The position numbers were made by a program, and so were the translations under genes. 64,000 nucleotides of DNA from Elioraea sp. Yellowstone (GTDB taxonomy: Bacteria > Pseudomonadota > Alphaproteobacteria > Acetobacterales > Acetobacteraceae). This document shows, one piece after another, positions 58,193-64,000 of this stretch; positions within the stretch are counted from its first letter, which is position 1, and every line of letters starts with the position of its first letter. Location of the stretch: NCBI RefSeq assembly GCF_006704265.1, contig NZ_VIKA01000004.1, forward strand, positions 1 through 64,000. The letters are read 5' to 3'. A model generated the notes under the pieces. That model was not told the origin of the DNA. It ran no database searches and worked only from the letters and a program-made list of their open reading frames with translations.

Positions 58193-60037
58193 CTACTGGC
58201 AGGCGAGGCACTCCTCGTAGTTGCGCGTCTCTCGCGCGAGAGGCGCGGGCACCGCACCGCTCGCCGCCTCCACCCGCACCGCCTTCTCGCTCACCGTGTC
58301 GGCCCGCTGGATCGAGAGGGAGCGGCAGTAGTAGAGGCTCTTCATGCCCTTCTTCCAGGCCTGGAAGTGGAGCTGGTGCAGGTCCCGCTTGTGCACGTTC
58401 GCCGGCAGGAACAGGTTCACCGACTGGCTCTGGCAGACGAAGGGCGTGCGGTCGGCGGCGTGCTCGATCACCCAGCGCTGGTCGAGTTCGTAGGCGGTGC
58501 GGAACACCGCCTTCTCGTGCTCGGTGAGGAAGTCGAGATGCTGCACCGAGCCCTTGTTCACCGTGATCGAGGTCCAGGTGTCGTCGTCGTCGCGTCCCTT
58601 CTCGGCGAGCAGCGCCGCGAGCGCGCGGTTGCGCACCGTGAACGAGCCCGAGAGCGTCTTCTGCACGAACACGTTCGCCGCGATCGGCTCGATCCCGGGT
58701 GACGCGTTGCCGGCGATGATGCTGATCGAGGCGGTGGGCGCGATCGCGATCTTGTTCGAGAAGCGCTCCATGATGCCGTAGTCGGCGGCATCCGGGCAGG
58801 GGCCGCGCTCCTCCGCCAGCGCGCGCGAGGCCGCGTCGCACTGCGCCTTGATGTGGCGGAAGATGCGCATGTTCCACACCTTCGCGATCACGCTCTCGAA
58901 CGGCACCATCTTCTGTTGCAGGAACGAATGGAACCCCATCACGCCGAGCCCCACCGAGCGCTCGCGCATCGCCGAGTAGCGCGCGCGCTCCATCCCCTCG
59001 GGCGCGCGGTCGATGAAGTCCTGCAGCACGTTGTCGAGGAAGCGCATCACGTCCTCGATGAACACCGGGTCGTCCTGCCACTGGTCCCAGGTCTCGAGGT
59101 TGAGCGAGGAGAGGCAGCATACCGCCGTGCGCTGCCGGCCGTGGTGGTCCACCCCGGTCGGCAGGGTGATCTCGCTGCACAGGTTCGAGGTCTTCACCTC
59201 GAGCCCGGCGAGCTTCTGGTGCTCGGGCCGGGCATTGTTCACGTGGTCGGAGAAGATCAGGTAGGGCTCGCCGGTCTCGATCCGCGCGGTGAGGATGCGG
59301 ATCCAGAGGGCGCGCGCCGGGACGCGGCGGATCACCGTGCCGTCCTTCGGGCTCACCAGGGCCCAGTCGCCGTCGCTCTCCACCGCGCGCATGAAGGCGT
59401 CCGGGATCAGGACGCCGTGGTGCAGGTTGAGCGCCTTGCGGTTCGGGTCGCCCCCCGTGGGGCGGCGGATCTCGACGAACTCCTCGATCTCCGGGTGGTG
59501 CACCGGCAGATAGACCGCCGCCGAGCCGCGCCGGAGCGAGCCCTGGCTGATCGCCAGCGTCAGGCTGTCCATCACGCGGATGAACGGGATCACGCCCGAG
59601 GTCTTGCCGACCGCCCCCACCTTCTCGCCGATCGAGCGCAGATTGCCCCAGTAGCTGCCGATGCCCCCGCCCTTCGCGGCGAGCCAGACGTTCTCGTTCC
59701 ACAGCCCGACGATGCCCTCGAGGCTGTCGGACGCCTCGTTGAGGAAGCACGAGATCGGCAGGCCGCGCGTGGTGCCGCCGTTCGACAGCACCGGGGTCGC
59801 CGGCATGAACCAGAGCTTCGAGATGTAGTCGTAGAGCCGCTGCGCGTGCGCGGCGTCGTCGGCATAGGCGGAGGCCACGCGCGCGAACAGGTCCTGATAC
59901 GACTCGCCCGGCATCAGGTAGCGGTCGTCGAGCGTGGCCCGGCCGAAATCGGTCAGCAGCGAATCGCGCGACCGGTCCACCCGCACGGCATGGCGGCCCG
60001 GAAGCTGCACGGTATCGAGCTGGACGACGTCGAGCAC
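58193..60037 (-). CDS. nrdA: Class I ribonucleoside-diphosphate reductase, alpha subunit
   Basis: This encodes 614 residues. GTG 60037 was chosen because GGAGGGA lies 7 bases upstream; GTG 60052 would place that site inside the gene. Substrate-site cysteines appear in LPISCFLN, SNLCSEITLP (radical Cys) and TAVCCLSSLNLETW. KSLYYCRS holds the Tyr-Tyr pair of the radical path from the beta subunit. The C-terminus ends in a redox CLAC. The N-terminal ATP-cone is absent, so overall allosteric inhibition by dATP may be missing or located on the partner. No nrdB lies nearby. It makes dNDPs aerobically. Control by the LexA-type box upstream is likely. Confidence 0.93.
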   Translation of the reverse strand: MLDVVQLDTVQLPGRHAVRVDRSRDSLLTDFGRATLDDRYLMPGESYQDLFARVASAYADDAAHAQRLYDYISKLWFMPATPVLSNGGTTRGLPISCFLNEASDSLEGIVGLWNENVWLAAKGGGIGSYWGNLRSIGEKVGAVGKTSGVIPFIRVMDSLTLAISQGSLRRGSAAVYLPVHHPEIEEFVEIRRPTGGDPNRKALNLHHGVLIPDAFMRAVESDGDWALVSPKDGTVIRRVPARALWIRILTARIETGEPYLIFSDHVNNARPEHQKLAGLEVKTSNLCSEITLPTGVDHHGRQRTAVCCLSSLNLETWDQWQDDPVFIEDVMRFLDNVLQDFIDRAPEGMERARYSAMRERSVGLGVMGFHSFLQQKMVPFESVIAKVWNMRIFRHIKAQCDAASRALAEERGPCPDAADYGIMERFSNKIAIAPTASISIIAGNASPGIEPIAANVFVQKTLSGSFTVRNRALAALLAEKGRDDDDTWTSITVNKGSVQHLDFLTEHEKAVFRTAYELDQRWVIEHAADRTPFVCQSQSVNLFLPANVHKRDLHQLHFQAWKKGMKSLYYCRSLSIQRADTVSEKAVRVEAASGAVPAPLARETRNYEECLACQ

Positions 60038-60151
60038 GAGCGGTCCCTCCACGGCAAAGACGCGCCGGATTGACGCACAGCCTGCGGGCGAGGATCAAGA
60101 TGTTGGGGTCAGGACGCTGCTGACATACGACATGCAGCAGGGTTTCGTGAC

Positions 60152-61895: not shown

Positions 61896-63626
61896 ATGAT
61901 CCGCATCCGCCGCATCGCCGACGACGCCGCGCGCATCGACCGGGACGCGATCGAGGCGGCGGTGCGGCTCCTGCGCGCGGCCTTCCCCGCCGCGCGCGCG
62001 GGCGAGTTCGAGACCCTGCCCAGGCTGCTGCGCCGCGGCGGGCCCGACCGGGTGCGTCCCTTCCTGCTGGTGGCCGAGAACGGGTTCGGCCGCGTGCGCG
62101 GCGCGGCGATCCTCTGGCACATGCCGGATGTCGGCGTGCTCTGGCTCGACTACATCGCCGGGGCGGAGGGCGCGCGCGGCGGCGGCATCGGCGGCGCGCT
62201 CTACCAGCGCGCGCGCGAACTCGCCGTCGGGCTCGGCGCGCAGGTGCTGCTGTTCGAGTGCCTGCCCGACGATCCGGCGGTCGTGCCCGACCCGGCGCTG
62301 CGCGCGGCGAACGCCCGGCGGCTGCGCTTCTACGCCCGGTTCGGTGCGCGCCCGCTGGTCGGCACCGACTACGAACGGCCGATCCCGGGCGAGACCGGGC
62401 CGATGCCGCCGCTCCTCGTCGTCGACCTGCTCGACCGGCGCGAGGCCTGGCCGGCGGCGGAGGCGCGCGCCGCGATCCGCGCCGTGCTGACGCGCAAGTA
62501 CGGGCGGATGGTCTCGCCCGGCTATGTCGAGCGCGTGGTCGGCAGCGTGCGCGACGACCCGGTGCGGCTCCGTCCCGCGCCGCGCCCGGCGCGCGCCCTC
62601 CCTGCCCCGCGCCTCGCCGCTGGCCCGGCGATGACGCTGGTGGTGAACGACCTGCACGAGATCCACCACGTGCGCGAGCGCGGCTACGTCGAGGCGCCGG
62701 TGCGCGTGCGCGAGATCCTCGAACATCTGCCGCGCGCGGTGCCGCTGCGCAACCTGCCCGCCCGGCCCTTCCCCGACGGCGCGATCACCGCCGTGCACGA
62801 CCGCGGCCTTGTCGCCTATCTGCGCGCCGCCTGCGCCGAGGTGGGCGAGGGCCGCGCGGTCTATCCCTACGTGTTCCCGATCCGCAACGCGACGCGCCCG
62901 CCCAAGGATCTGGCTCTCCGCGCGGGGTATTTCTGCATCGATACCTTCACGCCGATCACCGGCAATGCCTGGAAGGCGGCGCGCCGCGCGGTCGACTGCG
63001 CGCTCACCGCCGCCGAGGCGGTGCTGGGCGGCGAGCGGCTCGCCTATGCGCTGGTGCGCCCGCCCGGGCATCATGCCGAACGGCGCGCCTTCGGCGGGTT
63101 CTGCTACTTCAACAACGCCGCGGTCGCGGCGGAACTGATGAGCCGGTTCGGGCGTTGCGTGGTGCTGGACATCGACTACCACCACGGCAACGGCACGCAG
63201 GACATCTTCTATGCGCGGGCGGATGTGCTGACGATCTCGATCCACGGCGATCCGGCGATCGCCTATCCCTACTTCTCCGGCTTCCGCGACGAGCGCGGCG
63301 AGGGGGCGGGGGCGGGCTTCAACCTGAACCTGCCGCTGCCCGAGGCGGCGAGCCCCGCGCAGTTCGCCGAGGCGCTCGAGACCGCCTGCCGGCGCATCGC
63401 GCGCCACGACCCGCGCTTCCTGGTGATCGCCGCCGGGTTCGACACCGCCGCCGGCGACCCGACCGGGTCGTGGCGCCACCGTCCGGACGATTTCCGCCGC
63501 ATCGGCGCGCGCCTCGCGGGGCTGAACCTGCCGACGCTGGTGGTGCAGGAGGGCGGCTACCGCACGCGCACGCTGGGCACGAACGCCGCCGCCTTCTTCG
63601 CCGGGCTCTGGACCGGGCGGGCATGA
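61896..63626 (+). CDS. Fusion of GNAT-like acetyltransferase and histone-deacetylase-family (acetylpolyamine amidohydrolase-like) domain
   Basis: This encodes 576 residues in one uninterrupted frame. Residues 1 to about 190 resemble a GNAT fold: IRRIADDAARIDRD, RPFLLVAENGFGRVRGAAILWHMPDVGVLWLDYIAG, the acetyl-CoA loop GARGGGIGGALYQRARELA and ANARRLRFYARFGARPL. A linker follows to about 245. Residues 246-576 are a complete class II-type HDAC domain: RPPGHHAE (H392, H393), DIDYHHGNGTQ (zinc ligands D427, H429), AAGFDTAAGDP (D516) and EGGYR (Y555). One half would add and the other remove an acetyl group, perhaps on polyamines or lysines. An internal ATG at 62631 lacks a ribosome-binding site. 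Its stop overlaps the transporter start. Confidence 0.88.
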   Translation: MIRIRRIADDAARIDRDAIEAAVRLLRAAFPAARAGEFETLPRLLRRGGPDRVRPFLLVAENGFGRVRGAAILWHMPDVGVLWLDYIAGAEGARGGGIGGALYQRARELAVGLGAQVLLFECLPDDPAVVPDPALRAANARRLRFYARFGARPLVGTDYERPIPGETGPMPPLLVVDLLDRREAWPAAEARAAIRAVLTRKYGRMVSPGYVERVVGSVRDDPVRLRPAPRPARALPAPRLAAGPAMTLVVNDLHEIHHVRERGYVEAPVRVREILEHLPRAVPLRNLPARPFPDGAITAVHDRGLVAYLRAACAEVGEGRAVYPYVFPIRNATRPPKDLALRAGYFCIDTFTPITGNAWKAARRAVDCALTAAEAVLGGERLAYALVRPPGHHAERRAFGGFCYFNNAAVAAELMSRFGRCVVLDIDYHHGNGTQDIFYARADVLTISIHGDPAIAYPYFSGFRDERGEGAGAGFNLNLPLPEAASPAQFAEALETACRRIARHDPRFLVIAAGFDTAAGDPTGSWRHRPDDFRRIGARLAGLNLPTLVVQEGGYRTRTLGTNAAAFFAGLWTGRA

Positions 63627-64000
63627 CCGCGCCGCAGGTCACGATCCTCGGCCTGCTCGCGGCCGTGATCGCGGCCATGGCCTCGGGCCGGGTGCGGCCC
63701 GACCTCGCCGCGCTCGCCGCGCTGCTCGCCGCGGTCGCGCTCGGCCTCGTGCCCGCCAGCGAGGCCTTCGCGGGCTTCGGCGCCCCGGCCGTGGTGACGG
63801 TGGCGGCGGCGCTCGTGCTCTCGCGCGGGGTGGAGGAGACCGGGCTCGTGCAGGCGCTCGCCGACCGGCTGCTGCCCTCCGGCGCCGGTCCGACGCGCGC
63901 GATCCTGGTGCTCGGCACGATCGGCGCCGCCACCTCGGCCTTCATCAACAACGTCGCCGCCCTCAGCCTGCTGATTCCGGCCGCGCTGCGGGTCTGCCGG
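63623..64000 (+). CDS. SLC13/ArsB-type anion transporter, N-terminal part (cut by window end)
   Basis: The ATGA overlap with the fusion gene fixes the start at 63623; 126 residues are visible. They contain three or four hydrophobic helices: VTILGLLAAVIAAMASGRVRPDLAALAALLAAVALGLVPASEAFAGFGAPAVVTVAAALVLSRGVEETGL and the family motif TSAFINNVAALSLLIPAALRV. The S-x-F-I-N-N-x-A pattern marks the sodium/anion symporter (SLC13) superfamily, here likely the group with internal TrkA-C domains. The rest lies outside, so substrate and length are unknown. Confidence 0.8.
   Translation, partial: MTAPQVTILGLLAAVIAAMASGRVRPDLAALAALLAAVALGLVPASEAFAGFGAPAVVTVAAALVLSRGVEETGLVQALADRLLPSGAGPTRAILVLGTIGAATSAFINNVAALSLLIPAALRVCR

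Follow-up and report, generated by a model that had tools for sequence, protein, structure and literature searches.

GNAT acetyltransferase and HDAC deacetylase domains are each already known kinds. The locus described here raises the question of why one polypeptide should carry both, a domain predicted to place an acetyl group on an amine being joined to one predicted to remove it. The gene lies near the end of the window, the stretch of 64,000 nucleotides from Elioraea sp. Yellowstone that was analysed.

Domain organisation and conservation of the fusion

One ORF at 61896–63626 on the forward strand encodes 576 residues with no internal stop. The domain order is GNAT (GNAT1), helical extension, variable linker and complete ApaH-type HDAC-superfamily domain, with the features located as follows.

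61896–63626 (+), GNAT-HDAC fusion gene, 576 residues plus stop; orthologues 89–91% identical in two other Elioraea genomes
61896–62429 (+), GNAT1 domain, residues 1–178; Pfam PF00583, AlphaFold pLDDT 93, GNAT folds in the PDB, dN/dS 0.12–0.15
62175–62195 (+), acetyl-CoA (motif A) loop RGGGIGG, residues 94–100; G97 and G99 invariant in 87 rows
62310–62333 (+), GNAT motif B, N139...R142-L-x-F-Y146, Tyr146 probably catalytic; R142 and Y146 in 87/87 rows, N139 in 86/87
62430–62573 (+), two-helix extension between the domains, residues 179–226; model helices 187–202 and 208–216; Y202, S217 and R226 invariant
62574–62630 (+), variable inter-domain linker, residues 227–245; pLDDT minimum at 238–241, alignment gaps
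62631–63623 (+), ApaH-type HDAC domain, residues 246–576; PF00850, TM 0.82 to 6phr, nested in the ApaH tree
63069–63074 (+), catalytic His392-His393; 87/87 rows
63174–63182 (+), zinc ligands Asp427 and His429 (DYH); 86/87 and 87/87 rows
63441–63443 (+), zinc ligand Asp516; 87/87 rows
63459–63467 (+), gatekeeper motif P522-T523-G524, replacing PIS/PEG; PTG in 87/87 rows
63558–63560 (+), catalytic Tyr555 (EGGY); 87/87 rows
63623–64000 (+), CitMHS/TrkA_C anion transporter with ATGA overlap, running beyond the window end; also adjoins the fusion in E. tepidiphila

Pfam places PF00583 (Acetyltransf_1) on residues 50–128 with 26.1 bits against a cut-off of 20.7, and PF00850 (Hist_deacetyl) on residues 265–570 with 244.2 bits (2.5e-72); homologues give the same domain pair. 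The preliminary description had proposed a GNAT-like domain with an acetyl-CoA loop joined to a complete HDAC domain, and had named a profile search of the N-terminal region as the test that could overturn it. That search returned the GNAT signal, AlphaFold predicts a GNAT fold, the loop was located at residues 94–100, and every HDAC catalytic residue named is present and conserved. The ATGA overlap with an anion transporter is likewise borne out by the CitMHS/TrkA_C match and by the coordinates, the fusion stop at 63624–63626 overlapping the transporter ATG at 63623–63625. This coupling was encountered in Elioraea alone, where it is shared.

Residue conservation was scored over 87 aligned rows, which represent 83 distinct sequences. 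The zinc ligands Asp/His/Asp, the His-His dyad and the catalytic Tyr of the HDAC superfamily are all present, with H392, H393, H429, D516 and Y555 found in every row and D427 in all except one. In the GNAT half, G97, G99, R142 and Y146 are invariant; the R/Q-x-x-G-x-G/A motif matches in this protein (R94, G97, G99), and family position 94 is Thr in 52 of the 87 rows. The HDAC half is the more conserved of the two. Between Elioraea orthologues, dN/dS is 0.12–0.15 for the GNAT domain and 0.08–0.13 for the HDAC domain, indicating purifying selection on both halves. Conservation together with these ratios rules out a chance ORF or a frame artefact. The ATG at 62631, a possible separate start that would have counted against the fusion, corresponds to Met in only 4 of 87 rows; an internal start is thus ruled out as a conserved feature.

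The full-length AlphaFold model, built from a 73-sequence alignment, has a mean pLDDT of 86.8 and comprises GNAT, helical-extension and HDAC folds, linker residues 238–241 being the sole stretch with pLDDT <50. Modelled alone, the GNAT half reaches a pLDDT of 93.1. In Foldseek searches, the whole model retrieves acetylpolyamine amidohydrolases (ApaHs; TM 0.82 for 6phr by target length), and the GNAT half retrieves GNATs, with GCN5, a clavulanic-acid tandem GNAT and streptothricin acetyltransferases at high ranks. From sequence and predicted structure, we consider the product very probably a genuine two-domain enzyme, with both activities assigned from its domains.

A GNAT1 module that serves binding or dimerisation without catalysis, leaving the HDAC domain as the only working half, is unlikely. 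The usual Thr at the R/Q position of motif A and the lower conservation of the GNAT half would be consistent with such a module, but the four invariant GNAT residues and the dN/dS of the domain argue against it. The use of GNAT for binding only, one of two interpretations offered in the preliminary description, becomes less likely because both halves carry enzyme-like residues under purifying selection.

Distribution and phylogeny

The same fusion was sought in related genomes and found: its nearest relatives are in Elioraea tepidiphila and an Elioraea MAG, and it is carried by 3 of 7 Elioraea genomes and 10 of 385 alphaproteobacterial genomes. In a phylum-wide sample of 398 genomes it occurs once, in the source genome itself. 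A relative is encoded by 485 stretches of the GTDB species collection, of which the best 80 were kept. Record titles among these best 80 of 485 include Alpha- and other Proteobacteria, Desulfo- lineages, Planctomycetota, Chloroflexi, Bacteroidota, Spirochaetes, Calditrichaceae, KSB1, Omnitrophota, Bacillota, Chitinispirillaceae and Myxococcales; single phylum labels need caution because many carriers are metagenome-assembled genomes. In total, 86 distinct fused genes from about a dozen phyla were examined, ruling out that the gene is unique to the source genome. The earlier statement that no studied fusion of this order was known holds to the extent that no bacterial GNAT-HDAC fusion is described in the literature searched, outside which most subscription journals lie; the architecture itself, however, is common across phyla and so not peculiar to this genome.

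Both halves are carried by every one of the 81 loci scored with the two seeds (the 80 retrieved and the window gene), so that the GNAT1 type was not found alone within the retrieved set. In a maximum-likelihood tree of HDAC domains, all 30 fusions form a single clade with support of 100/100, which nests within the ApaHs, together with three of PIS type (support 99/91). The fusion shares with ApaHs of known structure (6phr, 9gkz and 3q9b; cluster 4, bacterial classical deacylases) the HDAC fold, the catalytic residues and the RPPGHH and EGGY motifs. It differs from them in the fused GNAT, in PTG instead of PIS, in its distinct long-branch clade and in its gene context. Head-to-head dimerisation by way of loops L1 and L2 is a further ApaH trait; the model built here is of the monomer. 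A phage or defence protein was ruled out, there being no PHROGs or PADLOC match; the match of the single viral-contig relative and the coverage of plasmid homologues are confined to the HDAC half.

Gene neighbourhood and substrate clues

Neighbours were scored by seeded tblastn; clustering of longest ORFs was muddied by antisense ORFs in the GC-rich DNA. Four genes recur beside the fusion: KamA, a lysine-type 2,3-aminomutase; AGa and AGb, ATP-grasp ligases resembling D-Ala-D-Ala ligase; and GNAT2. A KamA or ATP-grasp gene lies in the retrieved flank at 55 of the best 80 of 485 loci (KamA at 43/80, AGa at 54/80 and AGb at 55/80, many contigs being short), and at least one of the neighbour set is found at 25 of the 36 loci with full flanks. 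Among 27 checked genomes without close linkage, 26 contain an AGa-like match (E<1e-100 in 19); three of the weaker matches are adjacent ligase pairs. At an orthologue threshold of E<1e-90, from which ordinary ligases are well apart at E>1e-32, AGa is present in 8 of the 10 alphaproteobacterial genomes with the fusion versus 27 of 385 overall (Fisher p about 8e-9, with phylogeny ignored). In the source genome, KamA, AGa and AGb-GNAT2 form an operon on a contig (C326) separate from that of the fusion. In E. tepidiphila, 3.7 kb with other genes separates the fusion from the KamA operon, which lies upstream. In the window, the gene at 58193–60052 (-), beside TctC and thioesterase genes, encodes a ribonucleotide reductase large subunit; the corresponding spot in E. 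tepidiphila is occupied by other genes and by the KamA operon, which marks a rearrangement between Elioraea species.

GNAT2 occurs free, fused to the ligase AGb (in Elioraea) or joined to the C-terminus of the HDAC domain, and these alternative fusions tie parts of the pathway together. GNAT-HDAC-GNAT proteins of at least 740 residues with a C-terminal GNAT2 are encoded at 12 of the 80 loci. Examples adjoining KamA, AGa and AGb lie at L055 5204–7474, L081 3746–6031 and L073 8001–10262, and the AGb-GNAT2 gene of source contig C326 (L126 2684–4258) adjoins KamA and AGa. A solved structure, 2r7h, deposited as a "putative D-alanine N-acetyltransferase", is a close relative of GNAT2 (E 2.6e-59), not of GNAT1, and its name is itself marked putative.

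The neighbour genes also exist without the fusion. AGa occurs without it in 19 alphaproteobacterial genomes, which indicates that the core pathway can dispense with the fusion, and the KamA-AGa-AGb-GNAT2 core in the absence of the fusion marks the latter as accessory. Alphaproteobacterial operons of this core (L149–L165), mostly in genomes lacking the fusion, represent an apparently uncharacterised pathway in itself. No operon of aminomutase, ATP-grasp and acetyltransferase genes is described in the literature searched, most subscription journals being outside it; a 2009 survey of amidoligase operons may have touched on gene neighbourhoods of this kind. The pathway link is not universal, since an AGa orthologue is absent from both genomes of a divergent GNAT-HDAC subfamily (L042 1501–3231 and L043 1501–3231; wider context in L167 and L168), where the fusion lies between carboxypeptidase-like and deaminase-like genes. 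Its place in these two is conserved, downstream of cytochrome-oxidase assembly-like and carboxypeptidase-like genes, as judged by eye from translations. Overall, the fusion probably belongs with the KamA/ATP-grasp pathway.

Three clues bear on the substrate. The first is KamA: the LAM positions Asp293, Asp330 and Lys337 (numbering of 2a5h) are kept in 63 of 63 aligned KamA rows, a set that contains LAM and one duplicate. All three LAM cluster cysteines are likewise kept, in 62 of 62 rows, one row being gapped. In LAM, Asp293 and Asp330 bind the side-chain amine of lysine, and Lys337 binds PLP, so that lysine is the likely KamA substrate. The second is the gatekeeper, PTG in every fusion row, with the PIS motif not encountered; PTG is absent from the 14 plain relatives whose motif was locatable by pattern. 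The third is GNAT1, whose weak best PDB profile matches include streptothricin acetyltransferases (7ypu, E 0.0079; 3pp9, E 0.017). Streptothricin acetyltransferases acetylate an amine of a beta-lysine moiety. GNAT1 shares with these enzymes (7ypu, 3pp9, 5c82) and other GNATs the fold and the acetyl-CoA loop; it differs in that the similarity covers the central region only, in being HDAC-fused in all retrieved cases and in its extra helical extension. An NCBIfam search of the fusion protein gave no match, the streptothricin acetyltransferase family included, and such enzymes are not among the 35 matches of the GNAT2 profile at E<=0.001. All three clues favour a small molecule of beta-lysine type, and none of them is proof.

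Other roles were weighed against these observations. Paired aminomutase and acetyltransferase are the known route to the osmolyte N-acetyl-beta-lysine (PMC9337991, PMC4685198), and with the lysine-type residues of KamA and an ApaH domain suited to an acetylated small amine, an osmolyte role would find a basis here. It is nevertheless improbable: two conserved ATP-grasp ligases and a second GNAT would be left unexplained, opposing activities on one chain would require separate regulation, and an Rfam search near the operons of eight loci returned no riboswitch or other relevant element. The AblA/AblB pathway to N-epsilon-acetyl-beta-lysine resembles the present set in pairing lysine 2,3-aminomutase with a GNAT, and differs in that two ATP-grasp ligases, a second GNAT and an HDAC domain are found here; the KamA of L110 scores 457.3 bits, below the NCBIfam AblA equivalog cut-off of 525.4.

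PIS is the gatekeeper of bacterial polyamine deacetylases, and PEG that of HDAC10 (PMC11532494). With PTG in place of either, the main substrate is probably something other than polyamines. ApaHs are the nearest solved structures, with about 39% identity across the structural alignment, as expected if the HDAC half were an ordinary acetylpolyamine amidohydrolase within a cycle of polyamine acetylation and deacetylation. We regard this as quite improbable given PTG in every homologue, the recurrent aminomutase and ligases, and a separate plain ApaH-like gene elsewhere in the source genome. A self-limiting switch of protein lysine acetylation, the other interpretation in the preliminary description, finds no support other than the domain pair; bacterial ApaHs are also able to deacetylate lysine peptides (PMC11532494), but the switch is highly improbable, as the recurrent neighbours are small-molecule enzymes with no conserved protein target among them.

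A proposed accessory role in beta-lysine metabolism

We propose, with roughly even confidence, that the fusion serves, as an accessory enzyme with two activities, a pathway to a small molecule derived from beta-lysine, and is not a protein-acetylation switch. In the pathway core, KamA would convert lysine to beta-lysine, AGa and AGb would form amide bonds to the beta-amino acid, and GNAT2 would take part. GNAT1 would acetylate an amine with acetyl-CoA as donor, and the zinc deacetylase of ApaH type at the C-terminus would take acetyl off an amine, both acting on a beta-lysine-derived small molecule in an accessory step. The two domains most likely serve different amines or steps and do not run a futile cycle, which would squander acetyl-CoA in the absence of regulation.

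Adding or removing an acetyl group around an ATP-dependent ligation has precedent elsewhere, for example in mycothiol synthesis, and such chemistry would explain both activities on one chain. For instance, an acetyl group might protect or neutralise an amine during ligation and be removed later, or an acetylated product might be recycled; the exact protection or relocation chemistry is put forward only tentatively. Similarly speculative is the possibility that KamA, two ligases and acetyl chemistry make up an undescribed pathway to a beta-lysine peptide or amide, in which GNAT-HDAC(-GNAT) proteins acetylate one amine and deacetylate another.

The fusion would place opposing acetyl chemistry in one polypeptide, kept in about a dozen phyla and sometimes extended to GNAT-HDAC-GNAT. 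Its phylogeny and gatekeeper suggest that an ApaH-type deacetylase was recruited away from polyamines. Its partner genes suggest that a beta-lysine metabolite, apparently uncharacterised, is widespread, which would make the fusion family a direct handle on the pathway behind it.
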